Assembly: GCA_021372585.1 (NCBI GenBank)
Contig: JAJFUD010000036.1
Span: forward strand, 1-34,469
Length of the DNA: 34,469 bases
Source: a bacterium
GTDB taxonomy: Bacteria; Caldisericota; Caldisericia; UBA6126
Reading direction: 5' to 3'
Shown piece by piece: positions 12,001 through 34,469 of the stretch. Below the pieces are notes generated by a model. The model was not told where the DNA came from. It saw only the letters and a list, made by a program, of their open reading frames with translations, and searched no databases. Both the position numbers and the translations under genes were made by a program. Position 1 is the stretch's first letter. Each line of letters begins with the position of its first letter.

Positions 12001-13794
12001 ATTAAAAGGATCCGCTATGACTAAGCTGTCTTTAAACACAGCCACATCGGAGGGATACACAAATCTGCCGGGTATCACTCTATAATCATAGTCTTTTGTA
12101 GCATTGGCAAAATTGTCTTTGACCTGAAAAACAGATCCGAAACTACCGTATACATGAGATTGATTGGTAATCGTGTCCAGAATCTGAATACGGTTGTTGT
12201 TGGTGTCAGCAATAAAAATTTTGTTGGAGGAATCGGAGTCAATACCGGTTAATTCACTGTAACTGCCCAATTCATACCCATCTTTACCCATTTTGCGGAT
12301 AAAATTACCTTCAAAATCAAATTGCTGAATACAGGAATTGCCGGAATCCGAAACAAAAATAGCATTTTCTTCAACAGAGATACTCTTGGCAGCAACCAAT
12401 TGGCCATTCGCTCTGCCAAAAGAACCAAACGTTTTTTTCCATTTGCCTTCCTGATTAAAAATCTGGATTCGAGAATTACCCGAATCACACACGACAATCA
12501 CATCTCCGAAAACAGAGATATCATTGGGGAAGATAAATTGACCATCCAGCGAACCATATTCGCCAAACGTTGACAAGATATCTCCTTCTTCTGAGACTAT
12601 GGCTACTTTTGAGGCGGAGGAATCGACAATATATAATTTTTGATTGTTGTAATCTATCGAAACAGGAGAGGTAATTCCGGCTTTTGCTAAATTTTCAGCA
12701 TTGATAGCACTGACAAATTTTCCGGCTTCATCAAATTTCTGGATTGATTTCATGACAGCATCCAAAACAAACACATGCTTGTCCGAAACAGCCACTTTAG
12801 AAGGTCTGACAAAATATCCATCCGGCTTTTGCTGAGATCCAAAAAAGCCGTACAATCTTCCATCCAACTCCAATGAGAAAATCTTGTTCAGTTCAATATC
12901 TGAAACCAAGATTTTATTGTCTAATATGGAGATGCCAAAAGGAGATGAAAACTCAGTAAAAGAAAGTATTTGTTTAAAAACACCATTCTTTTCAAATACT
13001 TGGATCCTGTGGTTGCCGGAATCGACTACATAGAGGCTTCCATTGTAAAGCGTGATGCCTTTCGGATATATAAATGCTTTTTCTTCTGATCCCTGCCATC
13101 CAAACGAGGTTTGGTAAGCACCATGAAGATCTAATACCTGGATCCTGTGGTTATTCGTATCGGCCACAAAAATATTGCCTTCCGATACTTCGATGCCGAG
13201 AGGGTTATTAAATTCCACGTTACCGAGTCCAGCTTTCCCAAACGCAGAGACAAACTCACCGGTGGTTTTAAAAACCTGGATTCTTGAGTTACCGGTATCG
13301 CAGACGTATAAACTGTCTCCATCAATAGAGATATCAGTAGGATTCCTGAAAAAGCCTTCTTCGGTTCCAAACGATCCGAATTGGCTCAGGTAGACACCTT
13401 TAGCATCAAAAACCTGAATTCGAGCGTTGGCAGAATCCACCACGAAAATCTTTTCATTGTTCGAGGCAATACCACCGACTTTATCAAATTCGCGTTCATT
13501 TTGACCAAATCCGCCAAATCCTAACTGGAAAACATTGCCACGGATAAATGCTTGGACTCTGTTGTTGTAGGAATCAGCGACATAAAGCCTTTGTTGTTCT
13601 ACATTGAGATACGTAGGAGAGCAAAAGAGACCTTTCGGCAATCCTCCTCCGCCAATAATTTTTTCTCCTTTATCCTGTGTTTCTGTTTCTTCTGCATAAA
13701 CATTTTTTGTAGTATTCAGGATGGATAAAAAAGCCGGGGAACTTCCGATGCTCAACACCAAAACAAATGTTAAGGCTATTCTAATGAGTTTCAT
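9001..13794 (-). CDS. Secreted NHL-propeller, thioredoxin-like, Ig-like and CuAO_N1-like protein
   Basis: A 1597-residue exported protein with a signal peptide (residues 1-34, cleavage probably after NVYA). About twelve NHL repeats, each with a [LIV]-x-V-x-D-x-x-N-x-R-[IV]-Q-type core, fill residues 50-625, enough for two six-bladed propellers. Ig-like beta domains follow, then a thioredoxin-like domain (about 815-960) with W835 and the CxxC pair C836/C839, resembling Omp28-type domains. Further Ig-like domains lead to two C-terminal copper-amine-oxidase-N-like repeats (about 1465-1597). The frame opens at a GTG at 13809, but the ATG at 13794 is preceded by GGGAGGAGGG and begins the signal peptide. 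It is 14 bases downstream of the 290-residue gene. The role is probably a surface scaffold with a redox function; no enzyme activity is proven by the sequence. Confidence 0.85.
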   Translation of the reverse strand: MKLIRIALTFVLVLSIGSSPAFLSILNTTKNVYAEETETQDKGEKIIGGGGLPKGLFCSPTYLNVEQQRLYVADSYNNRVQAFIRGNVFQLGFGGFGQNEREFDKVGGIASNNEKIFVVDSANARIQVFDAKGVYLSQFGSFGTEEGFFRNPTDISIDGDSLYVCDTGNSRIQVFKTTGEFVSAFGKAGLGNVEFNNPLGIEVSEGNIFVADTNNHRIQVLDLHGAYQTSFGWQGSEEKAFIYPKGITLYNGSLYVVDSGNHRIQVFEKNGVFKQILSFTEFSSPFGISILDNKILVSDIELNKIFSLELDGRLYGFFGSQQKPDGYFVRPSKVAVSDKHVFVLDAVMKSIQKFDEAGKFVSAINAENLAKAGITSPVSIDYNNQKLYIVDSSASKVAIVSEEGDILSTFGEYGSLDGQFIFPNDISVFGDVIVVCDSGNSRIQIFNQEGKWKKTFGSFGRANGQLVAAKSISVEENAIFVSDSGNSCIQQFDFEGNFIRKMGKDGYELGSYSELTGIDSDSSNKIFIADTNNNRIQILDTITNQSHVYGSFGSVFQVKDNFANATKDYDYRVIPGRFVYPSDVAVFKDSLVIADPFNVRVQMIPFTAIYHEDMIRLTPSYLDFGSIGKQSKFDRIFLIHNEGGSLLEGKITSDNPNLVITPTSFKGSNQEVTVSINGSGLEAGKAYESTITVEFSNQTVKTLTVLFKANESPDFYMEIEPLLVTSADDEGYRIPIKVVPQNGFTGAVTFIALGMPKNTTTEFEPSSVILPDADTVYLKLRPSTKLVEAGVYDIEIEAQTIKKDIHHKASSTFIYKQKTDLVPHTVLGELFTAIWCINCVHSHTAMDRLYGELGKEKVAWIEYYVDSTADLPAPRLAYTESEQRMKWYMSDKGLPTCFFDGTEYLKGVPNMDDDSFEAKARRMYESYREKVIEKSKEPSFISISSRSRFDSKNRKGNITANITALDSIPYKDPRLYFALIESNIPFNAINGDKVHHFVLRDYITPKNDNLTDYLGIPMKKGSGEKFGLKGDTFEQSVSFDVLDIYDINNLSMVVFVQDNVTKRVLQTQVYPVKVINNRAFDLISDGSMSQKQVKGTEVTMTSYIYNNGTVADSYNCLILNKTKEKWLYQTLINGEQKSGDTNGGIKIEPSSFAKVEIKVAIPNNAAPKSEQVFTIQAISTATAQMKTIIGRIDVIESRPPGIKLVVEGTPENTKILAGETLSLTVKVLPDPYFDTPIQLSLKSIPAEILSYEFTVPTGTAPFESLLHIVFKPETPDKKIDLTLLATGDKIEKAQIITINVLKNPDALPPVIDLTYPTDNLVTNKKDLEITGMTDPSVTIVINDKPVKVENSGSFSLMIVLVEGQNVINVLGTNRKGLTTELTKVVTFDSKPPLLEVDEIPEEVTAETLTIHGRTEQGAVIKVGESDVSIDKDGFFEFTITLTKGYNTIDIMAVDTANNSTFLSFDVKKITLIKLRIGSKSVQINEETKQIDAEPYLKSGRTMVPIRFIAEAMQATVEWNEVLKEVTIMRDGKTIRIRIGSKDAYVKEEGGLGEDKVILDAPPEIKYNRTFVPLRFISEILGANIEWNEKLREITIKD

Positions 13795-13808
13795 GATCCC
13801 TCCTCCCA

Positions 13809-14681
13809 CTATTCCTTAGAAGGCTTTGGGAATAGGATCGTAACAGTTCTCGTAGAAGCTTCCCACCCTACTTCTGCGCCTAGAATCTCACCAACATAAC
13901 GAACCGGTACTAAAGTTCTACTATTTTTGATTATTGGGGCAGCATCCAAAGGAATGGTCCTTTGGTATACAGGTCCGATTTTGACCATCGCCTCTTTTTT
14001 GTCAATCCAGAAAAAGGCAGATAAATCGCCTAATACATAAGTGACTTTTCTGGTGGCATTGTCCCATAGAATTTCAGCAGATAACGCTTCCCCGATAAAG
14101 CGTAAAGGCACCATCGTTCTTCCGCTGATAATCATCGGGGGGACGTCTAAGGTGATATCTTTTCCACCCACAACGGCATTTTTCTTGTCAATGACTAATT
14201 TGATATTGGATGGCTTTACCACAATTCCGTAGAAAGTCAGGGTGGTTTTCAGGTTGGCTTCTCTCGTGGGCCATACTTCAAGAACAATCCTGATTTTCTC
14301 TCCTACTTTTGCGCCGGTGTAGGGGTATAAGGTGACATGCATCTCTTCGGTTGCATTATTTTTGACTTTATTGGGTGAAGTACCTTCATCCAAAAAACAG
14401 ATATTGGAATAACAAAATTGGGTAAACCAGTTTTGCTCATTCCCTTTTGGAAAATCCTTGACTGTGATTTTTGCGCTTAATGTAGATTCCTTTTTCGACA
14501 GGTTTTTAAAATAGAAATAGACCTGAGCAGCTTTACCAGCTTCCAAAGGAGTAAAATAAGTGTCTTCCGGAACTGCTTTTTCTGCAGAACCTACCGATTG
14601 GTACGAAGTAAAAGGGAACACCATGGCGACCAATAAAACCAATACAACTGTCAGAGAGGAAAGATTCATCTTCTTAAACAT
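13809..14681 (-). CDS. Secreted protein with beta-sandwich and CuAO_N1-like repeats
   Basis: The 290-residue product has a signal peptide (about residues 1-32), a beta-rich domain (about 40-165) containing a close cysteine pair in the segment FCYSNICF, and two CuAO_N1-like repeats (about 170-290) with the pattern SGRTMVPLRFIGEAL and NSRTLVPVRYVGEIL. Despite the domain name there is no catalytic amine oxidase domain; such modules occur on exported proteins of Firmicutes and other phyla. AAGGAG precedes the ATG. It lies between the subtilase and the NHL protein on the same strand, 14 bases from the latter, so these two are cotranscribed. It is the simplest carrier of the shared C-terminal module and could be a wall-binding or adaptor component. 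Confidence 0.8.
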   Translation of the reverse strand: MFKKMNLSSLTVVLVLLVAMVFPFTSYQSVGSAEKAVPEDTYFTPLEAGKAAQVYFYFKNLSKKESTLSAKITVKDFPKGNEQNWFTQFCYSNICFLDEGTSPNKVKNNATEEMHVTLYPYTGAKVGEKIRIVLEVWPTREANLKTTLTFYGIVVKPSNIKLVIDKKNAVVGGKDITLDVPPMIISGRTMVPLRFIGEALSAEILWDNATRKVTYVLGDLSAFFWIDKKEAMVKIGPVYQRTIPLDAAPIIKNSRTLVPVRYVGEILGAEVGWEASTRTVTILFPKPSKE

Positions 14682-14807: not shown

Positions 14808-17800
14808 TTATTTAACTCGAAGGATCACTTCTCCCTTTTTATATCTCCCTTTTGCATCCCTGGCTTCAATCTTGATTCGGTAAACACCCGGTTTTGTGTA
14901 AGTATGCGTTAACAGATACTCTTCAGAGACGGCTGCTTTATCCAGCACCTTCTCGCCGTCATTCCAATCCCAGTTGTAGGTGTAATTGCCGGTACCGCCT
15001 TCAATTTTGAACCGGACTTTTAGCTCTTTTCCATTGGCGATAGTGCCTTCATCATCAAGGTTTTCAAAATATACTTTAAAGTATAAAGGATATTCAGCGG
15101 CTTGTTTTGTCTTAAGACTGGTCTGTACTGTAAAAGTCTCCGTATAGAAAGGATTGGAGAAGACAGTTAACTTGCTGATCAGGATCGTACCATTGTCAGG
15201 TTTTATCCTAAATGGCTTTACCTTGGCTGTGATAATCACATAATGGCCATCAATATCGCTGATACAGGGAAATTTAATCGCTTCGCAATTGCTGGCTGGA
15301 TAACACTCCCCAATCGCTAAATCACGAATGCCGATATACAACTCACCGCTGGCGTAACTACCGGCCGGATCGGAAAATACAAATTCAAGATTCGGATCGA
15401 GTTCAAAAATCAGGGTGTTATTCGTGAGCGGTTCATTACCAACATTCTTGATCTGGATTCGATATTTGACAATACCTTCTTCGTCGACTGTTTCAGGAGA
15501 GGATTGCATACAGATTTGTGTTTTGTATATGCTGACGCGTTTTTGAACATGCAGGATAAAGTGTTTAAAAACAGTTAAGTTACGGGAAGAAGTATTGTTC
15601 TTTCCAATAACCTGTATCTCGTAGGTTCCAACAGGAGCTTCCAGAGAGACATCGATGGTGAGTTTGGTTTGGTATTTCATGAGATTGGTAGTGGGATTAG
15701 GTTTCAAGCTAAAGGATAGTCCTTCCGGTAATCCTAATGTGTCTACCTCAAACAGCACATCCTCAGAAAAACCGAAGAAAGTAGAGACATCTATCATAGT
15801 AAAGCCGGACTTGTCCTGTTGGATATACACATTGGTCGGGGTGAACGAGAAATCAAAATAAGGCTCCATAATCACATTCATTCCGACAATCACCGTATTT
15901 GATACTAAAGTTTGTGTAAACGCTGTCACCCTGAACTCATAATCACCGACAGGAGTATTGCTCGAAGTGGTGACATCAATAACAGATTCCGCCTGACCTC
16001 CGGCTGATAAGACAGGATTGAGAGGGTTGATGGTATAGGTGATACCATAATCCAACGGACTGACAGGCAAAGAGTTGTACAGCATCTGTACAGAGAAATT
16101 GATCGATCCGCTCGCGCCATCATAAGAGATCACTCTGGCGTTATAGGAAGTAGCGGCGCCCTTGAATACTTGTCTTACAGAAGGGGATACCGACAATCTG
16201 ATCTGCGGGTTCAAGACTGGTGGCGGATACTCTGCATCATGCAAACCGCCCGTGATAACAAGCGCATATGGCTGAGGTCCGGCAGGAATGTTGGTGCCAT
16301 AGACGACAAATTGATATACCCCCTCTTCAGGGACTTGAATATTCACCACTTCGACATTATTGATGGTATCAATCATCGAAGTGGAAGGATTCACGATGGA
16401 ATTACCGGAACTGCTATCGATAGCATTCCCAAAAAATGATTGACCTTTATCATTGGTGACCTTCAGATCAAGATCGTTGACTAATGCTTTGGTTCCGTTC
16501 GGGCTACCGGGATAATCTGTCCAAACCAAAGTCACTTTCAGAGGAGCGGTGGGAGCGATATAGAAGGAGATGGGCGTACTGTTTGCACCGGTATAAAGGC
16601 TATTTGCACCTTGCCTATCATAAAATTTAATCTCTTTTCCTTCAGGTGCGACAGCATTTTTCACATTGACCCGCCCCCATCCGGAAATCCGGCTGGGAGA
16701 ATAGAGCTGTGTGAGAGTGGTTCCGGATCTGGTATATAATTTTTCATTAAAAGCGCCGTTGATTAAAGCGGCTTTTAATAATGCGGAAGAGGGAGTCTGA
16801 TGGGCAATCTCATCGGCTCCGGTACCGTTAGTAAAAAATTCACGGATGACCGCAAGCGAACCTGCAGTAATCGGTGTGGACATACTGGTACCTCTCATTT
16901 CAATATAGGAATGTATTGGCGGACTAACGCGATGGTCTGTTACGGTTGATCTAATATATTGACCGGGCGCTACAACGTCAGGTTTGATCCTGCCGTCAGA
17001 AGTCAATCCGCCGGAAGAAAACTGAGCCATCACAGCAGGATTTCCACCATGATTATTATTTTCCGTTGCGCCAACGGTAATACAATTCTTTGCATTGGCT
17101 TGTTCCAAAAGCGTACTGGTTGTATATCCTGAGTTTCCGGCAGCAAATAATACGCTGAAATCTTTGTTGTTCCAAAGGAAAGAATCGATCTCGGCAGAGT
17201 CTCCGGTATAAGCATTGTTGCCTCCACCCCAGCTATTGGTGTGAATTCTTGCATCAGCACCGTAAGCATCTCCGAACAAAGTAGCATACGGGGGAGCATT
17301 AATCGCTCTGGGACTACCGGGAACTTTTAAGGATTGAATCACTAGCTTTGCTTTGGGAGCCATCCCTTTGTAACGAGTAGCAGAGGTGACATCCCCATCG
17401 CCGTCCCCCAGTACGCTTCCGCTAACATGGGTTCCGTGTTCATCACCAGGAGCGGGATGATCGGCCCAATCACCAGAAGACGCAGGAGTGGATTGGTATC
17501 CAAAATGAGCGTGCACTCTGTTTGGATCGAGAAAAGCCGGATGAAGGGTTGTTATATTGCCGGTAGATAAGCCGGTGTCTCCGACTGCAACTACCTGGTT
17601 ATCGCCTTCATTCAATGTGCTGAAAGTGGTATCATAAGCGTCCCTGACCTCAACTACCTGAGCAGCTTCTGCATTAAAAACTTTCTTTTCAGGAACCAGA
17701 TTCATGGATACAATATCAATATGCTGATAGGCTGCTTTGATTAACATCGCGGGAAAATCAACAATTCGTAAAAAACCGACCTTGTCGGTTTTTGAAAAAT

Positions 17801-18488
17801 AATATTGTTCGGGTTGGATGAACATATCTTCAAAAAAGTTTTCCAGATTGATATCGGGGGTCGTATTCATTGAAACAGAGATCGTGTTCGGTAACGATCC
17901 GGATAATAGATCCGGACTTGCTTTCAATACAGGAGGAACATACCCGATTCCTCTGACAAAACGTATGCTTTTCAGCTGTTGAGCTACAACAGGGGTAGTG
18001 CGTACCAAATAAGCAGAGTAGGGCAGTGGGTAATAGAAATCCACATCGAACGTTTCAATTTCAGTAATCCATTCTGCTTTGACAGGACCGATAAACTGAA
18101 GCAGAAAATAGCCAAGCTGATTATCCTGGGGCATCGTAATTCTCTTCAATACCTCTTCAGGATAAACCAGGTTCTTCCCTGCATCCGGATGAAATATATA
18201 ATTTGCATAGCGAATATCGAATATATCCTTGATTTCAACATAGGATATATTCTTACGCTGCAGGATCGTCTCCTGTTCATCAGATACTTCAGCCAGGAAG
18301 AAAGCATCATATACCTCAAGAATATTAAAACCAGACCGCTTAAACGTCTCAATAAGCGCTGAATTGGTTTCATAGACAATGACATGCTTACTGCCGGCAG
18401 CTAAGGTGGTTCCTTTCAATGGCGCAAAAAATGAGCCAAAAAGAAATAGAAATACAAGCATAATCCTCAATAATTGCTTTTTAACCAT
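14808..18488 (-). CDS. Secreted subtilisin-like serine protease (Kp43-like) with Ig-like and PKD domains
   Basis: The 1226-residue protein has a signal peptide (about 1-31), a long N-terminal pro-region (about 32-275), and an S8 catalytic domain with the triad D304 (VGDTG), H351 (HGTHVSG) and S535 (GTSMSTP), plus oxyanion N452 (AAGNSG). The domain has the features of Kp43-type subtilases, including a following beta-barrel with the segment VTLVWTDYPGSPNGT. Ig-like and CARDB-like domains follow, and the C-terminus (about 1140-1226) is a PKD domain with YNWDWNDGE and HTYTKPGVYRI. AAGGAGAGG precedes the ATG. A good promoter lies upstream. It could degrade external protein or process its surface-protein neighbours. 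It lacks the CuAO_N1-like module. Confidence 0.93.
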   Translation of the reverse strand: MVKKQLLRIMLVFLFLFGSFFAPLKGTTLAAGSKHVIVYETNSALIETFKRSGFNILEVYDAFFLAEVSDEQETILQRKNISYVEIKDIFDIRYANYIFHPDAGKNLVYPEEVLKRITMPQDNQLGYFLLQFIGPVKAEWITEIETFDVDFYYPLPYSAYLVRTTPVVAQQLKSIRFVRGIGYVPPVLKASPDLLSGSLPNTISVSMNTTPDINLENFFEDMFIQPEQYYFSKTDKVGFLRIVDFPAMLIKAAYQHIDIVSMNLVPEKKVFNAEAAQVVEVRDAYDTTFSTLNEGDNQVVAVGDTGLSTGNITTLHPAFLDPNRVHAHFGYQSTPASSGDWADHPAPGDEHGTHVSGSVLGDGDGDVTSATRYKGMAPKAKLVIQSLKVPGSPRAINAPPYATLFGDAYGADARIHTNSWGGGNNAYTGDSAEIDSFLWNNKDFSVLFAAGNSGYTTSTLLEQANAKNCITVGATENNNHGGNPAVMAQFSSGGLTSDGRIKPDVVAPGQYIRSTVTDHRVSPPIHSYIEMRGTSMSTPITAGSLAVIREFFTNGTGADEIAHQTPSSALLKAALINGAFNEKLYTRSGTTLTQLYSPSRISGWGRVNVKNAVAPEGKEIKFYDRQGANSLYTGANSTPISFYIAPTAPLKVTLVWTDYPGSPNGTKALVNDLDLKVTNDKGQSFFGNAIDSSSGNSIVNPSTSMIDTINNVEVVNIQVPEEGVYQFVVYGTNIPAGPQPYALVITGGLHDAEYPPPVLNPQIRLSVSPSVRQVFKGAATSYNARVISYDGASGSINFSVQMLYNSLPVSPLDYGITYTINPLNPVLSAGGQAESVIDVTTSSNTPVGDYEFRVTAFTQTLVSNTVIVGMNVIMEPYFDFSFTPTNVYIQQDKSGFTMIDVSTFFGFSEDVLFEVDTLGLPEGLSFSLKPNPTTNLMKYQTKLTIDVSLEAPVGTYEIQVIGKNNTSSRNLTVFKHFILHVQKRVSIYKTQICMQSSPETVDEEGIVKYRIQIKNVGNEPLTNNTLIFELDPNLEFVFSDPAGSYASGELYIGIRDLAIGECYPASNCEAIKFPCISDIDGHYVIITAKVKPFRIKPDNGTILISKLTVFSNPFYTETFTVQTSLKTKQAAEYPLYFKVYFENLDDEGTIANGKELKVRFKIEGGTGNYTYNWDWNDGEKVLDKAAVSEEYLLTHTYTKPGVYRIKIEARDAKGRYKKGEVILRVK

Positions 18489-18796: not shown

Positions 18797-21745
18797 GTGA
18801 TTAGAAAAATCGTTGTCCTCAGTTGGATAGTGTGCTTCACGATGATCTTACCGTTCCAAAACTTTCCATCTGTGTTACCAGCAGAGGCAAAACAAGAAAA
18901 ATGGTTTATACGCATTTTATTGGCTTCCCAGGAAAAACAACTTATGATTACTAATGACCATGCTTATATATTAAAACTTTCCGGGTCTTATTCATTTAAT
19001 CAAAAAGAAAACCGCTTTCATATACTCAAAGAAAAAGGCAGTTACCAGAATGGTTTTTTCACCATTTTGTTGAAATCCGGTCTGACTTTGATGGAAGCAC
19101 AACAGCTGGCGATTCAAACCAGAGATCGCTATTTTAAAGCCTCTGATATAAGTTTCCTGATTCAGGAAACCGATCAGAATCAATTTTCACTCTCTTTGGG
19201 TTTATTTGCAGAACTTAAAGAAGCTGACTTTATTGCCTCTTTTTTGAAGTCATTTTTTCCCGAAATGAAAAATACTAAGCATAAAACCGATGACAATGCG
19301 GTAGGTTTGCAGTTGGATGACAATATCTCCCTGATTTCTGCTTATACGGACTCTCCCGATGCTTGCAAAAGTTTTTCCATTACCACTGCCCAATCCCCCT
19401 GTCAATACAAAAAGGTGTCGTATCCAGACACCTTAGAACTCTATCTCTGCAATCACACACTTTCTCTGGTAAACCGTACGGATATCGAAACTTATCTTGG
19501 CGGAGTGGTCGGCTCGGAAATGCCAGATGATTGGCCGTTAGAAGCCTTGAAAGCCCAAACCCTCGCTTCCCGGACTTATGCGTATTCCAGGTCGCTAGCC
19601 GCCCGCCAGCGAAACGCTTATTTTGACGTGACCAACGATACGAACAGCCAGGTATATCTCGGCATCCGGCATCTGCCAAATTCTTTCAAAGCCATCTCTG
19701 CCACTGAAGGGTTGATTATCACTTCTCAATCGAAACCGATCGAGAGCGTCTTTCACTCTTCCAGCGGAGGGTTTACGGAAAACAATGAATTTATTTGGTC
19801 AGGATCGCCGACACCGTACTTACGCGGCGTACCCTCTCCCGGGGAGGAAATTTCTCCTCATTTCAGCTGGTATCGTTCTTTTACCAGAAAAATAGTGTTG
19901 GAAAAACTGAATACCTATCTGACAAAAAAGCAACTGCCTTCACTGAATACGAACCCTTTCACTCTGTCCATTACCGAGAAAGGAATCTCTCCTCGTGTCA
20001 GAAAAATTTCCCTATTACAGGATAAGAGAGAGGTTTTCCTGACGGGTAGTGATTTCGTCGCTTTGTTTAATCTGAAGAGCACTTGGTTTGATTTTTTTTG
20101 GTATACCCCTGAAAAAACAGGACAGGTACCACCTTTGCTACAATACTTCGGAGAACAGCACACTCCACTTGATCAGGAAAGTACACTATATATAGTCGGC
20201 AGAGGATGGGGTCATGGCGTCGGGATGTCACAATATGGCGCCCTGGCGATGGCTAAAAAAGGGAGCTCTTACCAGGACATTATTGCACATTATTACTCCG
20301 GCACGAGAATCGAATCGATTCCCTCATTTCAATCCCAATCCAAGACGTTACAGACCCTCCAGAATCAGATTCTGTTTGATCCTTGCTGTGTCCGGATTCA
20401 AAATGGCTCTTTTCTGGATGTCAGGATGAAAATCAATACTCAAACGAACATTTTTGGGATTTCCTTTGAGATGAAATATCCGAAAGATCTGATTATTCTC
20501 AAAAAAGAGGAGATCCGTGAGGGAACTTTTCTGAAGAGTGATCAAAAATCAACTATTTTCCTCGTCTCTGAATCGGAGAATGGGTACAAAGTCGGCTTGT
20601 CACGCGAGGGCAAAGTAGGCGGGGTGACCGGGGAAGGGGACCTGATTTTCTTTCGTTTCCAGGGAGTACAAAGCGGTATGGGGACAATCCAGTTATTGAA
20701 CCTTCAGGCTCTCGACTCCAGACTGGAACCAACCGCGATAAACGCCCAGGCGATGGAAATCACGGTTTTCGAAAAGGATACCACCCCTCCTGTCACCAGG
20801 ATCACCCAAACCCCCGGCAAATGGATCAATCAGCGTAAGGTATATTTTGAGTGGATCGGGGAAGACGATCAGACCCCCGTTTCGGAGCTCTTGTATTCCT
20901 ATCGCCTCAATCAGGAGCCATGGTCCACTTTTTCATTTATTACCCATACCAATATCACACTCCTCCATGATGGTCCCTATATATTTTCCGTTCAAGCCAA
21001 GGATAAAGAAGGAAATACCGATACCCCTGCCCCTGAATATAGTTTTATACTGGATACTACTCCTCCCATCCTGAATATTTCTCCCGCTCCCGCAGAGACA
21101 AACTTATCGGAATACACCCTGAACGGGCTCACAGAGTCTGAAGCATCGGTCATGATGAATGGAAAAACACTCGCAATCTCTCCGGATGGCACCTTTTTTG
21201 TGAAAGTGGCTTTATCGTTGGGCCACAATTCTTTCCAGTTCACCGCGACGGATAAAGCGTCCAATGCCACCCTGGTGACTATTTCCATCCTTCGAAAACA
21301 ATATCAGCCGATTATTATAATGATGACGATCGGTAGTAAAAAAGCGATTGTGAATGACACCGTCCTGACATTAGACTCCGTTCCTTTTATTAAACAGGAC
21401 AGAACTTTTGTCCCACTGCGGTTTATAGCAGAAGCGTTCGGCGCTTCCGTACAATGGTTTCCGGAATCAAAAAAAATCGAGATCAATCTGGACCACCCCC
21501 TGGTGAAGAAAAAAATTGAATTGTGGGTAGACCAAACGGTCGCCTATGTGAATCAGACTCCTTTTACGATGGATGCGCCCCCTTTTATCGTTCCCCCCGG
21601 CAGAACCGTGGTTCCTATTCGGTTCATTGCTGAATCCATGGAATCAAAAGTGGAATGGTTCTCCTTGACACAAACCATTACAATTACATTTCCTGAAAGT
21701 TTGATGAATGAAAGCACTGAAATTTCCTATTTGGGAGGTTTATAA
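18797..21745 (+). CDS. SpoIID/LytB-domain protein with cohesin-like, Ig-like and CuAO_N1-like domains
   Basis: A 982-residue exported protein with a signal peptide (about 1-31). Residues about 225-510 form a SpoIID/LytB domain with GGVVGSEMP, EALKAQTLASRTYAY, NDTNSQVYLG, FHSSSGGFTE and GRGWGHGVGMSQYGA. In spore formers SpoIID cleaves denuded glycan strands; outside sporulation, related domains bind or activate peptidoglycan enzymes. Residues about 524-656 look like a cohesin domain, followed by an Ig-like domain opening TTPPVTRIT, a second beta domain, and two CuAO_N1-like repeats (about 838-965). It starts with GTG at 18797 behind AGGAGAGGAGGGCGGA. Its TAA overlaps the ATG of the next gene. 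It probably attaches to peptidoglycan and offers a cohesin to partners; this is inference. Confidence 0.87.
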   Translation: MIRKIVVLSWIVCFTMILPFQNFPSVLPAEAKQEKWFIRILLASQEKQLMITNDHAYILKLSGSYSFNQKENRFHILKEKGSYQNGFFTILLKSGLTLMEAQQLAIQTRDRYFKASDISFLIQETDQNQFSLSLGLFAELKEADFIASFLKSFFPEMKNTKHKTDDNAVGLQLDDNISLISAYTDSPDACKSFSITTAQSPCQYKKVSYPDTLELYLCNHTLSLVNRTDIETYLGGVVGSEMPDDWPLEALKAQTLASRTYAYSRSLAARQRNAYFDVTNDTNSQVYLGIRHLPNSFKAISATEGLIITSQSKPIESVFHSSSGGFTENNEFIWSGSPTPYLRGVPSPGEEISPHFSWYRSFTRKIVLEKLNTYLTKKQLPSLNTNPFTLSITEKGISPRVRKISLLQDKREVFLTGSDFVALFNLKSTWFDFFWYTPEKTGQVPPLLQYFGEQHTPLDQESTLYIVGRGWGHGVGMSQYGALAMAKKGSSYQDIIAHYYSGTRIESIPSFQSQSKTLQTLQNQILFDPCCVRIQNGSFLDVRMKINTQTNIFGISFEMKYPKDLIILKKEEIREGTFLKSDQKSTIFLVSESENGYKVGLSREGKVGGVTGEGDLIFFRFQGVQSGMGTIQLLNLQALDSRLEPTAINAQAMEITVFEKDTTPPVTRITQTPGKWINQRKVYFEWIGEDDQTPVSELLYSYRLNQEPWSTFSFITHTNITLLHDGPYIFSVQAKDKEGNTDTPAPEYSFILDTTPPILNISPAPAETNLSEYTLNGLTESEASVMMNGKTLAISPDGTFFVKVALSLGHNSFQFTATDKASNATLVTISILRKQYQPIIIMMTIGSKKAIVNDTVLTLDSVPFIKQDRTFVPLRFIAEAFGASVQWFPESKKIEINLDHPLVKKKIELWVDQTVAYVNQTPFTMDAPPFIVPPGRTVVPIRFIAESMESKVEWFSLTQTITITFPESLMNESTEISYLGGL

Positions 21746-26605: not shown

Positions 26606-29600
26606 TTATTTTGTGACCCATCGTTCGATGGTAACGGTTTGATTAATGCCATCCCAGGATACTTTCGCATCCAAAGCTTCCGAGATGAAGCGGATCGGAA
26701 CGAACGTCCTGCTATTACGAATCATAGGCGGGGCGTCCAGCACATAAATACTTTGACCGACCATCGCCATGGTATTACCGATCTGCATTGAGATAAACGA
26801 CCCTTCCAGCTCAATTTCAACTGTTTCCGATTTTGCCTGCCAGTTTACTTTCGCACCGAATGCTTCAGAAATAGCCCTGACAGGAACCATTGTCCGATTA
26901 TTAAAGATAAATGGCGAGGCATCTAAGGTGATCGCTTTCCCGTTGACATACATCGCATTTTTACCGATTGTCAACAGGATCACAAGCTTCCTGGCTACAT
27001 GAATCGTGACTTTAACTTCAGTGACCAATTCAAATTCATCGATTGCTTGAACTATCACTTCATTCTTGCCCAGTACAACAGGAACGGTATGAGAGAATCG
27101 TAAACCATCCAGCTCTACCTTCTCTAGATTGATAAACACTTTCACTTGCTGGTTTTCGACAGAACCGGTGATCGTATAGGTCGTCACATCCACGACCGGA
27201 TCCGGTATCGGGTCAATGACCAGATTCGGTCCCTTCATGACTCGGATAATCACAATTTCTTTCTTGTTTGTCCTGCCTAACGGATTGGTTGCCTGTATCT
27301 GGAACACATTCTCTTCTTTGGTTAATAAAAGCGTGACCGAGAACTTCCCGGTTTGATTGTCTACCGTGATAGGCTGACCATCCAGGGAAACCTGGCAACC
27401 CGGATTTGTTTTTCCTGACAGGATAAGGTCTTTGGCTTTTGTTTTATCAGGATACGGATCCATTTCTAAAAGCGGGGGCATCGAGGAATCTAACACCAAA
27501 ATCCTAGGTGGATTCAGCAGGACATCTTCACTTAACAGAGAAATCGTAATCACCCCCGGGTTGGTGGGACGAATATTGAAATAGGCAATGCCCTCTGCAT
27601 TCACTTCTTCTGTAGCATTCACTCCGGAACCCTGCAATTGAATTTTTTGATGGTTGAACGATTGGATTCCAACCAGTTGGAGCGTGACATCGTTATCCAT
27701 ATCCGTATAGACAGCCTGCCCTTTTAATATCACAACAGAAACGCTCCCAACCACATCGAAATCAAGCAATTTCAGAGAGACGGTTTTGTGGGGTGTCAGT
27801 TTCATGTCTGTATACAATGAAACAGCAGAAGCACCTGCCAAAGAGGGAGTCAGTTTTGTCTGGAAGGAGAGCCCGGCTTCCCAGTTGCCTGTGGAGAGAA
27901 CTTTTCCATTTTCAGTGAAACGAAATACGTCAAATAGCTTTCTCGGGGAGTCGGCATGAACGATTAACTCGTTCTCGGTGCCGGATATCAAATCAAATTG
28001 CTTATTCTGATAAGCGCCAAACGGAAGCGGATTGCCGTTCTTATCTGTCACGCTGAGAGAGAGTGGATCTACTTTGAGAGTGCTATCGGCCATCGCGAAC
28101 CAATCAAAGGCAAACACCCCATCGGGATTGAAACGTCGTTTGATGCTGGAACCGTTATCTTCCGGGGTACCTCCTGCCACATCTGCCAGGTCATTATCCA
28201 GTATCAATGGGTTGAATCCGACAAAGAATCCGATTTCACCAGGCACCACCCCAAACAGTGTAAAGGAAATCTCTCCGGTGATGGTGCTGATGGCATCCTT
28301 CGTATTGATCTTATTGTCTCCCTGTACATCCGCCACATAATATTGGCTTAGGTAAGGAGAATTATAGATACACCCCGGGCCAAACCAGTCTTTTTTGTTT
28401 TTAAGCCGTTTCTCTTCACTGACCGTTGTATCATAGAGTTTGTTCAGTTCCATGATTTCATTGTCCTGAATCGTTTTATCGCCGTTTTGGTCGAACCCAA
28501 TGTAAGCCTTTTTATCAGAATCAGCCGAGACACTCTGGTCAAATACAAAGTACGGGATTACCTGTAAGCCGGTGCCGATTAATGCCTGTTTCTCGGCATC
28601 CATGATCTTGGCTTTCACCAGATATTGGTTGCCGATACTTGGTTTTTCGACGGTCCCCTCACTATTTTTTACGGTGTATTCCACTATCGGGCGCGCCGCT
28701 TTCACATCCAGCGTACCATATTGACGGGCATCTTTGGTTTGTACCCGTAATCGGAAGGTCCCTTTGTCATTGACGACAAAGTTCTTGAATTTATAGATGC
28801 CCTTTTTCGCTTCCGAGAAATCATACTGCAACAAATTTTTGGCGCCATACAATCCTTCATTGGAAACGTTATCTGCCGCACTATTCTGCAGGTCAGTCTT
28901 AAGCCAGTAATAGGCTGGAAGAGTGACCGGAACATCATCAAAGAACAGAGCGGCTGTTTCCTGAGTGGTATTCCTGCCGCCATTCGTCAAATCGACCGGA
29001 GAACCGTCGTCTTCTTTCACGGTAAATTGCAGGCTATCCCCTTTAAACACTGTCTCTGAGGTAACGCCTGCCGTAATCACAGGAGGGTCCATGGTCACCA
29101 CGAGAGATTTCTTGGGACCACTGCTGTACCCGATCGGTACGGTAGCTTGTCCGGCGATGTAGACTTCATGGGAGAATAGTTTATTATCGACGGGGCTCGC
29201 ATATAAAGGAGTAAAGCCACGGTCATTGTTGTCATCCCCGTATTTATAGGCAGTCACATAGACAGGCATGAGTTCATTGTCGTCCAGAATCCGATTCTCG
29301 TTAAAATCGAGACCCAGCGTATCCACCACACATCCTTTAGCCTGGGAGAGCTGGAATCGGTACACACCGTTATTGACCTGGAAGGTTCTCGCATCCCGGA
29401 TGCCTCCGAACCAGGTATTGGTCGCCATATCATAGGAGCCCACGATTTCAGTTTCATACGCATTAAAAGTGATTTTACCATCTTCATTCAGGTCATCATA
29501 TGAAGAATACGCACCATAACTGCCCGATCCCGTAGAAGATTCAGGGGCTCCGGTCATCCACCCGTCTCCGGCACCGGTCAATTCGGAATATTTGGACTTA

Positions 29601-32600
29601 ATACCCCGGTCCTGCCAGATAAATACGACGGCATCATTGACTGCCCGTACACTCTGCATCGGTTCATATTCTTTAATTGTCACGGTGAACTCAGAATCTT
29701 CTTCCACCTCGATGCTTCCGGTAAAATTGCTGATATCTAATGCCCGGACCGGAATGCCCTCAATGGGCTCTTCACAGCAGTCAAAGTAACTGCCCACTCT
29801 TCCATCTGCCAATTTCACCACGATTTTAATCATGCCATAATTCACAGGAATCAGTTCATCGATCACGATGACCCTGGGAATCCCTTTATAATTCAGCTTC
29901 CTGGAATATTGCAAATACGTGTTCGCTTGGCCATAAGAGACAGCTTCCGCCATACCCGGATTGATGATGTTAGTCCAATCGTCGCCAACCAGTTCATATT
30001 CTTCATAGTTGGAGGAGTCGATATTTACTTCTCCGGATTGTTCATATTGAATGGGTATATGCTGCAGTCCCTGGAAGTCATTGTTCGCCAATGGGAACAA
30101 TGGAGTCCAGAAAGGACCGGTGAGGTCGATACTGACGATCCTGTGTGAACGGTCCGTGGATTCAAAAGATAGTAACCCACCATCCTGACTGTCTCGCAGA
30201 ACAAAATAAATCCCATAATCAGCCATTGGCAAAAACTCTGTACCCAGCTTGGTAAACTGATTTTCCCAGATGGCAGGATACCCGTTTCGACCTTCCCGGT
30301 TCGTTCCACCGGTTCTGCCGGTATGGGTCTGCCCGCCGGGATAACCGCGAAAATCGCGGATTAAGGAGGACAGAACCGGGTTATAATCCGGTTTAATGTT
30401 GGCATTGTAAGAGACATCGGAATACCGGAGTCCATGATCGAGGACCACCATTTCAGAGAAAACGATTCCGTCGTTTCTTCCTCCACCACCGCCGCCTCCT
30501 CCTGGAGGATCAGGATCTTCCGGAGGGTTAGGATCTTCGGGAGGATTGGTGGCTTGCCAACCAATCGTGATCAAACCACAATAATCAATCCCACTGGTAC
30601 CCCCGCTGATGAAATAGGGAGGGTGTTGGATCGTGCTGTTATAATCAAATAAAGCCTGGGTGGTAAAGACCCGTATGGTTAAAGGATCGGTATTGTCTTT
30701 TGGCCAGACAGGGATGGGAATCTCTCCCCCCTCCTTGCCCCACATTCCTTCGCCGTAGGGGGTAACAAACACCCACACCCCATCAGAGAGAATGGTACCA
30801 AGCGTGCCATTAAACACACCAAACGTATCCCCTTTGGTAATTTTACCTAATGGAGGAATATTCCCGGCTTTACATACGTCACATTCAACGAAATTCGCTG
30901 AACAATCAATGTCCGTAAACCGTCCGTTATACAATTCCTCTTCATTGACCGAACTAAAAGGACCGGTAACTTCGTCCTGAAAATCCAACGCGCCGAAATA
31001 CCCTTTCCCGGGAGCCGGACTCGGTTTATCTACCCACTTCCAAATCAGGTACGTGTTATCTTCATTGACCTGTACAATATATTTGATTCCACTGGAATCC
31101 TGAGCGGTAAAACTGTACAGAATGCCCGCTCCTGTGACATTGATATTCGCTAAAATGGTTTTAGAGGGAGTCGTCGCCATGTAGAGATTCGCAGGGTCAT
31201 TGACATCATTTTTATTATCCGCATCTTTAATACGAGCGATTAAATTTGGAAACCGAGAGCTGATTTTCTGTAAACAGGTCGCAGAACAACTGCCGGTTAA
31301 AGCTTCCGGTAAAACGGTCATCTGGTTAAAACTTCTGCAATCATAACGGTTCTCCAGAAATTTGGCTGTGGAGGAAGTCGTGATGTTCCAGTACCCGTAC
31401 ACCCCATCCTGAGGTCCCGTCGCATCATTGTGCATCTTTAGATTGCGGTATACTTCTATGATGATCGGTTGAAATTTCCCGTCAGCCCCGCAAGTTCCCT
31501 CATAAGGAGTGTAGGTAAACGTGTATTCAGAGGTAGCTTCGTAGATTTCTTTCATCATGTCCGAGCCATCCGGGGAACGAAGGATTAAAATCGCTCTCTC
31601 GCCGTTTTGTAAAGCCGGATAGAAGGTGACTTCAATCGTGGAAGTTTGCTCCACCTGTAAAGCCGGACTGATTCGCACATTCATGGTTGACTGTGCCGGC
31701 AGTACTTCCAGATCCATGAACCGGAAATCTCCGCATTTGCCCATGCTGATACCAGTGACTGGATTCTCATACTGCCAGGTGTCGCCGATCCGTACCTTCG
31801 AACCGCAGTCGTAATGCTGACCACGGTAGGTAACCTCGGTTAAACGAACATCATTGGCTGAGACAAGATGGTTGGAGTCAAAATCACGGTAGATAAAATC
31901 GTGTTCATCAAACAAAGAATCCGTATTGTTATCCACAAATTTTTCAATAACCATATTCTGGAGAACGAAGCCGGCATCGGCATCGCCATCGGTCACAGTG
32001 GTCCCGCTCGGATAGGAAATAACAGTGTCTCCTACCGTGACGGTGATGGAACTTAATCGGTTATCCCCCAAGGAGACCATTGAGTTATTATCTAAATCAT
32101 TATAAATAGCTCCCTGACATCCATAGATGAGGCTCCCGCTACTGTAATGCCGTAGTGTGGATGGGAATGGCAGCAATGGCAGAAAAGAGTCCGTATCGGT
32201 CTCGTTGCTGTTCATCCCGAGAAATTCTTCGCATTGAACCCCCGGCTTATAATCGTCAGACAGGTTGTAAGCCGTGGTAGAACCGCCGCTCAGATGAAAA
32301 TTCACCCCGTTATCCTTCCATATTTCCACCCCAATATACTCTCTGTATTTCAGAGCAATATTATGAAAAGTAGTGGCGGGGGCAAAAAATCTGTCTCCAA
32401 CAGGAGCGAGAGCAGTACTCTGTTGAACTGATTGTGCGTTCGCAGGCACATCATGATTCGGAGAATACAACCTGGCAGAAGTCACCGCGGGTTTTACTCC
32501 CATCCATACATCCGACTCAACGGAGATATCATATTGATTGTTTTGGCAACTGGCAAATAATAGTTCAGACATCAAAAGAATCTTGGTCTGCTTTTCTCCT

Positions 32601-33235
32601 AAGATGGCCTGGCCTAATTTAAACACCCGACCGGTAAAATCCAGGTCTGAAAAGAAAAGCGGATTCACAGATCCCAATCGGGTGAATTGATAGCCTTTTT
32701 TATGGGATAGATGGAGATAATCCCCCACTGCATATGGTCCATAGGTATTATTGGATACAATGGTGTCCACCCGGTTTGCGGATTGACTGCATCGTTCCAT
32801 AGGAGTATTGGCTTCACGGGCGTCGTGGAAATGACCATCCTGGTCGATCCAAATCTGTCCGGCATTATCTAATACAGCATAATAATGTCCCTCTAACTGG
32901 GACTGCCCTCCTGCCGCGATCACATCCACATAGAATTCCGTGTAAAAAAGAGGCTTGGATGCTTGTTGTGAGGTAGCCGGACGAGAAGCGCCAGCAGAGG
33001 GCATCGGATATCCCGCCCGTCCCCACACCTCTTCACTTCTTCGCTGCCACGGAAATTGAGAGCCATTCGTGATAGTCTCTCCCTCACGTGTTATACCTAC
33101 TGGTACCCATTGAACGGCTATAAATGTCGCCTGTTTGTTTGCGGCAAAAGCAAACAAAGGTTTGATTGGTATGACTGAGAGAAAACTCACCGCTACAGAG
33201 AGGGTGATCCACGCACTGACTAGTATTTTTTTCAT
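26606..33235 (-). CDS. Giant secreted protein with calcium-loop motifs and C-terminal CuAO_N1-like repeats
   Basis: The 2209-residue product has a signal peptide (about 1-32). I recognise no catalytic domain. Visible features are an N-terminal region of about 890 residues with many cysteines; at least six EF-hand or dockerin-type loops, for example near residues 375-390, 430-478, DLNEDGKITF (about 1243), DFNENRILDDNE (about 1306), DQNGDKTIQDNE (about 1580) and DVQGDNKINTKD (about 1635); a Pro/Gly linker (about 895-922); Ig-like domains; and two CuAO_N1-like repeats at 2078-2209 with NNRTMVPVRAISEAF and NSRTFVPIRFISEAL. AGGAAGGGG precedes the ATG. The gene lies 94 bases after the exosortase-associated gene on the same strand, with no terminator seen between. 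It is likely a large calcium-stabilised surface protein. Confidence 0.8.
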   Translation of the reverse strand: MKKILVSAWITLSVAVSFLSVIPIKPLFAFAANKQATFIAVQWVPVGITREGETITNGSQFPWQRRSEEVWGRAGYPMPSAGASRPATSQQASKPLFYTEFYVDVIAAGGQSQLEGHYYAVLDNAGQIWIDQDGHFHDAREANTPMERCSQSANRVDTIVSNNTYGPYAVGDYLHLSHKKGYQFTRLGSVNPLFFSDLDFTGRVFKLGQAILGEKQTKILLMSELLFASCQNNQYDISVESDVWMGVKPAVTSARLYSPNHDVPANAQSVQQSTALAPVGDRFFAPATTFHNIALKYREYIGVEIWKDNGVNFHLSGGSTTAYNLSDDYKPGVQCEEFLGMNSNETDTDSFLPLLPFPSTLRHYSSGSLIYGCQGAIYNDLDNNSMVSLGDNRLSSITVTVGDTVISYPSGTTVTDGDADAGFVLQNMVIEKFVDNNTDSLFDEHDFIYRDFDSNHLVSANDVRLTEVTYRGQHYDCGSKVRIGDTWQYENPVTGISMGKCGDFRFMDLEVLPAQSTMNVRISPALQVEQTSTIEVTFYPALQNGERAILILRSPDGSDMMKEIYEATSEYTFTYTPYEGTCGADGKFQPIIIEVYRNLKMHNDATGPQDGVYGYWNITTSSTAKFLENRYDCRSFNQMTVLPEALTGSCSATCLQKISSRFPNLIARIKDADNKNDVNDPANLYMATTPSKTILANINVTGAGILYSFTAQDSSGIKYIVQVNEDNTYLIWKWVDKPSPAPGKGYFGALDFQDEVTGPFSSVNEEELYNGRFTDIDCSANFVECDVCKAGNIPPLGKITKGDTFGVFNGTLGTILSDGVWVFVTPYGEGMWGKEGGEIPIPVWPKDNTDPLTIRVFTTQALFDYNSTIQHPPYFISGGTSGIDYCGLITIGWQATNPPEDPNPPEDPDPPGGGGGGGGRNDGIVFSEMVVLDHGLRYSDVSYNANIKPDYNPVLSSLIRDFRGYPGGQTHTGRTGGTNREGRNGYPAIWENQFTKLGTEFLPMADYGIYFVLRDSQDGGLLSFESTDRSHRIVSIDLTGPFWTPLFPLANNDFQGLQHIPIQYEQSGEVNIDSSNYEEYELVGDDWTNIINPGMAEAVSYGQANTYLQYSRKLNYKGIPRVIVIDELIPVNYGMIKIVVKLADGRVGSYFDCCEEPIEGIPVRALDISNFTGSIEVEEDSEFTVTIKEYEPMQSVRAVNDAVVFIWQDRGIKSKYSELTGAGDGWMTGAPESSTGSGSYGAYSSYDDLNEDGKITFNAYETEIVGSYDMATNTWFGGIRDARTFQVNNGVYRFQLSQAKGCVVDTLGLDFNENRILDDNELMPVYVTAYKYGDDNNDRGFTPLYASPVDNKLFSHEVYIAGQATVPIGYSSGPKKSLVVTMDPPVITAGVTSETVFKGDSLQFTVKEDDGSPVDLTNGGRNTTQETAALFFDDVPVTLPAYYWLKTDLQNSAADNVSNEGLYGAKNLLQYDFSEAKKGIYKFKNFVVNDKGTFRLRVQTKDARQYGTLDVKAARPIVEYTVKNSEGTVEKPSIGNQYLVKAKIMDAEKQALIGTGLQVIPYFVFDQSVSADSDKKAYIGFDQNGDKTIQDNEIMELNKLYDTTVSEEKRLKNKKDWFGPGCIYNSPYLSQYYVADVQGDNKINTKDAISTITGEISFTLFGVVPGEIGFFVGFNPLILDNDLADVAGGTPEDNGSSIKRRFNPDGVFAFDWFAMADSTLKVDPLSLSVTDKNGNPLPFGAYQNKQFDLISGTENELIVHADSPRKLFDVFRFTENGKVLSTGNWEAGLSFQTKLTPSLAGASAVSLYTDMKLTPHKTVSLKLLDFDVVGSVSVVILKGQAVYTDMDNDVTLQLVGIQSFNHQKIQLQGSGVNATEEVNAEGIAYFNIRPTNPGVITISLLSEDVLLNPPRILVLDSSMPPLLEMDPYPDKTKAKDLILSGKTNPGCQVSLDGQPITVDNQTGKFSVTLLLTKEENVFQIQATNPLGRTNKKEIVIIRVMKGPNLVIDPIPDPVVDVTTYTITGSVENQQVKVFINLEKVELDGLRFSHTVPVVLGKNEVIVQAIDEFELVTEVKVTIHVARKLVILLTIGKNAMYVNGKAITLDASPFIFNNRTMVPVRAISEAFGAKVNWQAKSETVEIELEGSFISMQIGNTMAMVGQSIYVLDAPPMIRNSRTFVPIRFISEALDAKVSWDGINQTVTIERWVTK
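30478..30545. repeat. Low-complexity tract encoding a Pro/Gly linker
   Basis: Short degenerate repeats on the plus strand (CCTCCACCACCGCC, then two copies of a unit like GGAGGATCAGGATCTTCC) encode, on the minus strand, two PPEDP units followed by eight glycines. It joins two parts of the giant secreted protein. Confidence 0.75.
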
Positions 33236-33329: not shown

Positions 33330-33791
33330 TTACGAAAGAAGGGACTGCTTGCTTTTGATCATGTACCCTATCCAGATAATAAAGGGCAGCGCTACCCGTA
33401 AAGTACCCAACATCAGAATGGTAAAATATAAATAACCGGTCTGACCCGGCTTATAAAAGGCATATTTCTCAAAAAAACGCCCCAATACTTCCACGGAGAA
33501 TAAACTCAAGAACACCCATAACAGAAAGAGGTAATTGATCTTCTTCCACGATGGGAGGGTAGTCAAATAAAGCGCCAGAAAAGGCAGGAATGAGAACATC
33601 TCCCCCGCTATTTTTTCAGATTTAATTCCTTCCCAGGCAGGAAAGTAGCTACATAGGTTTAGCAATAAATAAGCCAGCTTCAGACGAAGCCAAAGATAAT
33701 ATGGAGCGATGGGAAGCCAGATACAGTATAAAACCACTAATAAGCCGATGAAAACAGCTGTTTTTTTCAGCAGAAAAATAAAATGTTTCAT
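33330..33791 (-). CDS. Small polytopic membrane protein coupled to the exosortase
   Basis: The 153-residue protein is very hydrophobic, with probable transmembrane helices at about 9-29, 64-80, 86-105 and 122-146 and basic loops (KKTAV, SWKK, KSKQ). The ATG overlaps the exosortase stop in TAATG, which implies strict co-translation. Exosortase H loci are known to encode a small associated membrane protein next to the enzyme; this protein fits that place, size and topology, but I identify it by context more than by sequence. It could help the exosortase recognise or transfer its substrate. Confidence 0.7.
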   Translation of the reverse strand: MKHFIFLLKKTAVFIGLLVVLYCIWLPIAPYYLWLRLKLAYLLLNLCSYFPAWEGIKSEKIAGEMFSFLPFLALYLTTLPSWKKINYLFLLWVFLSLFSVEVLGRFFEKYAFYKPGQTGYLYFTILMLGTLRVALPFIIWIGYMIKSKQSLLS

Positions 33792-34336
33792 TAGGGAAAT
33801 GCTTCAGGGAACCGCTTCTGCAACTGAGTAATCCAGAGATAAAACACCATGACAACAAACCATATCAGGAATAATTGCCAAAAATACGTGTGGAGGAAAG
33901 GGAACCATTTTGGATTTTTCTGGGAGATCAGGAATAATGTCACCAACCGAATCAGATTCATGACATAGATAATAACGACTCCGATCAAGCTGATTTTATA
34001 CTTCTCCATCCATGGAAACCGGGTTGCCCAGACCCCTGCTAATAAAACAATAATGCCGTATACGCCTGTGCATTCATAAATAATCTCCATGTCGATCCCG
34101 GCCAGGATGTGAAATGTACCTTCCTGGATCTGCAATGTCGCACTGGGTGTAAACCACCGGATAATGTAATGCACCAACCATGTGGTAGCATAGGTAAATG
34201 GCTCCCGAATGAGCGTCCAATGGGTGACCCATTGAAAAACAAGTAAGAATAAGAAAAAAAAGCTGACGAAACGAAAAAACGGCTGCTTTAAAAAAAGAAA
34301 CAGCCGTTTTTGTAAAGACGTTTTCTCCGTGTTCAA
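33791..34336 (-). CDS. Exosortase/archaeosortase-family membrane protein, probably exosortase H type
   Basis: The 181-residue polytopic membrane protein has the three signature residues of exosortases: C89 in YECTGVYG, R130 in MNLIRLVTLF and H149 in FLHTYFW, each at the edge of a transmembrane helix. Exosortases are transpeptidase-like enzymes that cleave C-terminal sorting signals of exported proteins. The short length resembles exosortase H rather than the longer EpsH forms. The start is a TTG at 34336, three bases after the stop of the upstream gene, without a good ribosome site; no better start lies before the first helix. It is followed by an overlapping membrane-protein gene and preceded by a gene ending in a PxLxxWG tail, the signal expected for this family. 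Confidence 0.88.
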   Translation of the reverse strand: MNTEKTSLQKRLFLFLKQPFFRFVSFFFLFLLVFQWVTHWTLIREPFTYATTWLVHYIIRWFTPSATLQIQEGTFHILAGIDMEIIYECTGVYGIIVLLAGVWATRFPWMEKYKISLIGVVIIYVMNLIRLVTLFLISQKNPKWFPFLHTYFWQLFLIWFVVMVFYLWITQLQKRFPEAFP

Positions 34337-34339
34337 AAT

Positions 34340-34469
34340 CTATTTTATTGGTTTTTTTAAGTCTACCCGTTTGGATACTACGTAGAAAGCCAATATCATC
34401 GAGAGTAGAATGATAAACCAACCCCAGGTATTCAGGAATGGGGTAGCCATATCGTCTATCTGGTCATAG
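34340..34469 (-). CDS. C-terminal end of a protein with an IPTLxxWG-like sorting signal, cut by window edge
   Basis: A minus-strand frame is open from the right edge to a TAG at 34340-34342. Its last 42 residues include TPFLNTWG, then a transmembrane helix of about 18 residues starting WFIILLSMILAFYVV, then a basic tail (SKRVDLKKPIK). The layout of P-x-L-x-x-W-G, helix and positive cluster is that of the IPTLxxWG-CTERM signal used by exosortase H, with T-P-F-L in place of I-P-T-L. It ends four bases before the exosortase gene. The body of the protein lies outside the window, so its function is unknown. I infer that it is a dedicated substrate. Confidence 0.75.
   Translation of the reverse strand, partial: YDQIDDMATPFLNTWGWFIILLSMILAFYVVSKRVDLKKPIK

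Follow-up and report, generated by a model that had tools for sequence, protein, structure and literature searches.

Organization of the exosortase locus

The window, that is, the whole stretch of DNA analysed here (34,469 nucleotides), is the entire contig C15 of a Caldisericia genome of 1.88 Mb in 104 contigs that is 97.7% complete. At its right end, three genes on the minus strand follow one another in the order of a large exported protein with a C-terminal tail, an exosortase, and a partner membrane protein. We refer to this triplet and its enzyme as type A. Of the first gene, the C-terminal 42 codons and the stop are present (34340–34468, minus strand), and because the window is the complete contig and ends at 34469, the cut gene cannot be extended. 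The open frame 34468–34343 translates to YDQIDDMATPFLNTWGWFIILLSMILAFYVVSKRVDLKKPIK and is closed by a stop at 34342–34340. It contains TPFLNTWG, a hydrophobic stretch at residues 10–33, and the basic end KRVDLKKPIK, which is the general CTERM layout of motif, helix, and basic cluster.

The exosortase gene (33791–34336, minus strand) encodes 181 residues and starts with a TTG codon at 34336. The initial annotation had placed it four bases from the stop of the cut gene; the two genes do adjoin, but the gap between the stop and the TTG is three bases. The substrate stop codon TAG and the TTG lie in one reading frame with a single codon (ATT) between them (34334–34342), so that read-through of the stop would fuse the substrate with the enzyme. 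The orthologue at locus L011 instead has a 59-base gap.

The partner gene (33330–33791, minus strand) encodes 153 residues, and its ATG shares one base with the stop codon of the exosortase gene (TAATG). The product had been described as a coupled four-helix membrane protein. The coupling is consistent with the overlap, but the number of helices is only approximate, as three strong hydrophobic stretches appear in a Kyte-Doolittle scan over 19 residues and five helices in a low-confidence model. The structure models of the enzyme and the partner, which were made from two-sequence alignments, are both of low confidence (pLDDT 55.6 and 63.2). Downstream of the triplet is a gene for a 2209-residue exported protein (26606–33235, minus strand) that has no sorting tail. 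Pfam identifies C-terminal Cu_amine_oxidN1 domains and a Glucodextran_B domain in this protein.

The sorting tail and its orthologues

At the DNA level, the degenerate pattern P-x-[LF]-x-x-W-G has 20 matches in the genome, compared with 21 for a reversed control. Only the window copy lies in an open frame that continues into a helix and a basic end before the stop, and it is therefore above chance; the remaining 19 matches were rejected as tails.

The same gene order is found in two other genera. At locus L011 of the Caldisericia metagenome-assembled genome STF1_269, the substrate is complete and consists of 1273 residues with an fn3 domain, a hydrophobic signal sequence, MKLTRKIFSLFICLILSFAFASFSF, and a tail, LKTPFLDIWGALALLFGMMLVAWQFVFRKKEEQSF, that contains TPFLDIWG. 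It is followed by the exosortase, an overlapping partner gene, and a 2206-residue protein corresponding to the product of the window gene at 26606–33235. That gene is thus a conserved downstream neighbor of the type A triplet. Locus L013 has the same order, and its substrate tail contains MKTPGFDLWG. The C-terminal parts of the L011 and L013 substrates are 32% identical. The window fragment aligns with both tails; T-P, W-G, and a tyrosine upstream are conserved, and the type A tail can be written as TP-x-[LF]-[DN]-x-WG followed by a helix and basic residues. These orthologous tails bear out the initial reading of the cut gene as ending in PFLNTWG, a helix, and a basic tail. On the strength of this alignment, the cut gene is most likely orthologous to a gene for an exported protein with a signal sequence. 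The N terminus of the window protein lies beyond the cut, and the signal sequence is that of the full-length L011 orthologue. Searches of the genome with the orthologues found no piece of the missing N-terminal part on another contig; their matches were limited to fn3 domains and the like in other proteins, and those proteins have Cu_amine_oxidN1-like ends and do not stop at a contig break.

A hydrophobic helix followed by basic residues is also typical of simple C-terminal anchors, and the tail could be such an anchor beside an exosortase that is inactive or acts on something else. We regard this as very unlikely. In the tail alignment, the helix drifts but the TP....WG motif in front of it is kept, and the gene order is retained across three genera. 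The catalytic residues are invariant, and the occurrence of tails follows that of the enzymes across the phylum, as described below.

Classification of the exosortase

The window enzyme scores 58.9 bits against the exosortase superfamily model TIGR04178, well above the cut-off of 23, so the 181-residue protein does satisfy an exosortase model. The residues Cys-89, Arg-130, and His-149, which the initial annotation had listed as intact, are invariant in an alignment of Caldisericia enzymes (A1; 8 of 8 sequences, one of them partial). Pfam gave no match for either the enzyme or the partner.

The tail had been called the known mark of exosortase H (XrtH) substrates, and this did not hold when the curated models were applied. 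Among the specific models, XrtH (TIGR04177) gives the window enzyme its highest score, but at 66.6 bits this is under the cut-off of 86. The type A orthologues in the two other genera, with 67.0 and 68.0 bits, are also under it. The IPTL-CTERM model (TIGR04174, cut-off 20.5 bits) has no match at E ≤ 1 anywhere in the genome of the window, including the tail. Since neither curated model is satisfied, the tie between the tail and exosortase H is one of evolutionary descent that we infer, and not one of membership. In f7, a less closely related family of this phylum, both tested enzymes pass XrtH (103.8 and 93.0 bits), and four of the six tails of one genome (G052) are above the IPTL-CTERM cut-off. 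For these reasons we place the window system on a diverged XrtH branch. The enzyme is best described as XrtH-like rather than as XrtH, and it is probably XrtH-derived.

The score order is different for some orthologues, for which archaeosortase B (TIGR04144), a member of the same superfamily, is the best or second-best specific model. Its scores exceed those of XrtH for the L013 orthologue (75.9 versus 68.0 bits) and for enzymes of family f6 (88.4 versus 78.8 and 79.9 versus 66.7), and the window enzyme might accordingly be grouped with archaeosortase B (VPxxxP-CTERM) rather than with XrtH. All of the enzymes are, however, far under the archaeosortase B cut-off of 150 (49.1 bits for the window enzyme). 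The VPxxxP motif was not found in the examined tails, which resemble [IVLM]PxLxxWG. Together with the two f7 enzymes that pass XrtH and a partner that resembles the XrtH-associated protein, this makes an archaeosortase B assignment the least probable of the readings considered here.

The partner membrane protein

The window partner has no direct family match, and the model for the XrtH-associated membrane protein (NF041730 XrtH_assoc, cut-off 35 bits) did not match it. The same model matches partners from families f6 and f7 at 9–19 bits, and in six genomes these matches lie where the partner gene is expected. Comparison with hhalign relates the window partner group to the partners of other Caldisericota exosortase loci with probabilities of 93.8–97.4%, and a partner gene follows the enzyme at every examined locus with an assembled downstream side. 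The window partner is thus a probable diverged relative of the exosortase H-associated membrane protein, for which the Caldisericota loci provide genomic context.

A second enzyme-substrate pair

The genome of the window contains a second, paralogous triplet of substrate, enzyme, and partner, which the initial annotation had overlooked. On contig C5, a tailed S8 subtilase is followed by a second exosortase (type B) and a second partner. The subtilase (1108 residues, PF00082) ends in EQPIPVMNRTTLLLLGALLLGIGLFGIRKGLVAKKQA, in which EQPIPVMN precedes a helix and the basic end RKGLVAKK. The type B enzyme together with a tail-bearing subtilase is also present in genomes G003 and G001 of the same family. 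Contig ends interrupt the locus in two further genomes: in G002 the type B enzyme and a probable substrate each abut one, and the G004 contig breaks off within the enzyme gene. Types A and B are separated with full support in the enzyme tree, and type A is nearer to family f6 (92/88).

Distribution of enzymes and tails

An HMM of the tails was built from 13 sequences, partly from genes adjoining exosortases. It scores the window tail at 2.4e-13 with that tail in the model and at 1.1e-6 with it left out, and the C5 tail at 1.4e-11. In leave-one-out tests every tail was recovered, with E values from 3e-10 to 0.03. The genome of the window contains exactly two exosortases and two detectable tails, and each tail gene immediately precedes the gene for its own enzyme. 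The only P-x-[LF]-x-x-W-G tail is that of the window, and the third-best HMM match (E = 0.066) falls on a helix inside a longer protein. The earlier suggestion that the enzyme may serve one or few substrates is therefore borne out, with one detectable target for each enzyme, a count that is bounded by the 97.7% completeness and by motif-based detection, which would miss tails with no recognizable motif. The other six large exported proteins of the window have no such tail at their ends, as had been claimed.

Exosortases are carried by 12 of 54 Caldisericota genomes. Tails at E < 1e-3 were found in 11 of these 12 and in none of the 42 exosortase-negative genomes, a count that is partly circular because the HMM includes tails found beside enzymes; seven of the recovered tails were outside the model. 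Weaker matches (E 0.007–0.02) were set aside, and those inspected (L101, L103, and L104) fall within large multi-helix membrane proteins. In the family of the window (f1), three genomes have two enzymes and two tails and a fourth has one of each, as do two f6 genomes. In both families, a tail-bearing gene is directly upstream of every enzyme with an assembled upstream side. The f7 genomes have one enzyme with one to six tails. In the genome with six tails none adjoins the enzyme, whereas a tail gene does adjoin it in G049 (one tail) and G050 (two tails). G051 and G053 have one tail apiece, weak or distant, and in neither does it lie beside the enzyme.

An ordinary exosortase H that serves many IPTL-CTERM substrates, only one of which had been noticed, would agree with XrtH as the best specific model and with the f7 enzyme that has up to six tails. 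For the window enzyme this is improbable, as the XrtH score is 66.6 against a cut-off of 86 and the IPTL-CTERM model has no match in the genome. Two independent genome searches also found no further such tail beyond the neighbor of the second enzyme.

Some neighbors of the exosortases in other families differ in their tails. In f7, the neighbor at L060 (6372–8771) and at L058 (7032–9278) is a protein with a beta-propeller (delta-60 repeat) and InlB repeats, and the tails (MPSMSWWG and LPSLGWMG) stop at the helix with no basic cluster. The f6 subtilase substrate at L062 (6893–10960) ends in VPATSTWS and a helix, and its match to the midcut-by-XrtH family is weak (12.9 bits, below the cut-off of 45).

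A model for dedicated sorting

We consider it very probable that the locus is a dedicated sorting operon in a genome with two exosortases, each with about one adjacent substrate, and that both pairs descend from an XrtH/IPTL-CTERM-like ancestor. From the observed gene order, conservation, residues, tail counts, and co-occurrence we infer how cleavage, transfer to an acceptor, partner function, and specificity could be arranged. The large protein encoded upstream would be exported by an N-terminal signal peptide, and its C-terminal tail ([KA]TP[FG][LF][DN]xWG, helix, basic residues) would anchor it in the cytoplasmic membrane. The adjacent exosortase would cut the tail near the motif by means of its Cys/Arg/His site and would most likely pass the cut protein to an acceptor in the envelope, and the small, translationally coupled membrane protein would help the enzyme. 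For the superfamily it is established or proposed that an exported protein stays membrane-bound through its tail until the exosortase cuts this off, and the joining of the cut protein to an envelope component is possible (PMC3237569, PMC12188702). The window system may coat or decorate the cell surface. An S-layer protein of Methylomirabilis carries a predicted IPTL-CTERM domain (PMC8671808).

The system resembles exosortase H/IPTL-CTERM (TIGR04177/TIGR04174) in the short Cys/Arg/His enzyme, in a tail of the form P-x-[LMF]-x-x-W-G, helix, and basic residues, and in a coupled partner that resembles XrtH_assoc (NF041730). It differs in that the window enzyme and its tail are both under the curated cut-offs, in having one adjacent target per enzyme, and in having two paralogous enzymes with different tails in one genome. 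In cyanoexosortase B, the exosortase is likewise directly followed by an associated-protein gene, that of the downstream CrtB-associated protein, and sorting affects the exoproteome. That enzyme belongs to a different exosortase subfamily, however, and its genome has 35 predicted PEP-CTERM proteins (PMC12188702).

The closest parallel to the arrangement is found among rhombosortase/GlyGly-CTERM pairs, in which an enzyme adjoins its sole target even though the enzyme, a rhomboid serine protease, and the tail are unrelated to those described here. Single targets of rhombosortases tend to adjoin the enzyme and multiple targets tend to be apart from it (Haft and Varghese, 2011; PMC3237569), a rule that the adjacency trend in Caldisericota matches. 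Cupriavidus metallidurans has two rhombosortases with one target next to each (PMC3237569), so the principle of dedicated systems is already known. Among the papers searched, none deals with exosortases in connection with Caldisericota. In this phylum, the tags and the duplication of the enzyme-substrate arrangement look new; the sorting principle is not.

The two pairs would form a channel A, with the window enzyme and the fn3-containing protein, and a channel B, with the contig C5 enzyme and the subtilase. It is conceivable, though we give it somewhat less than an even chance, that the two XrtH-derived paralogues have each co-diverged with the adjacent tail (TPFLxxWG versus PIPVMN) into insulated, mutually exclusive channels in one cell. 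The pairs may also show cross-processing. If the channels are insulated, the intermediate tails, in which the tryptophan is replaced by tyrosine or phenylalanine, would be a natural series for the study of exosortase specificity. In one family of Caldisericota an enzyme goes with several canonical tails, and in others it has a single diverged, adjacent target. Because the phylum has both kinds, these naturally matched pairs make enzyme-tail specificity testable, through co-changing residues and through cross-reaction between A and B.

Other large proteins of the window

The window also encodes a 1226-residue subtilase-like protein (14808–18488), which has no sorting tail, unlike the tailed subtilase of the C5 pair. 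Ends that resemble paired Cu_amine_oxidN1 domains are present in the large exported products of window genes 9001–13809, 13809–14681, 18797–21745, and 26606–33235, as well as in five proteins on other contigs; Pfam confirms the domains only for 26606–33235. These ends may be the main non-CTERM means by which proteins are held at the surface in this lineage.
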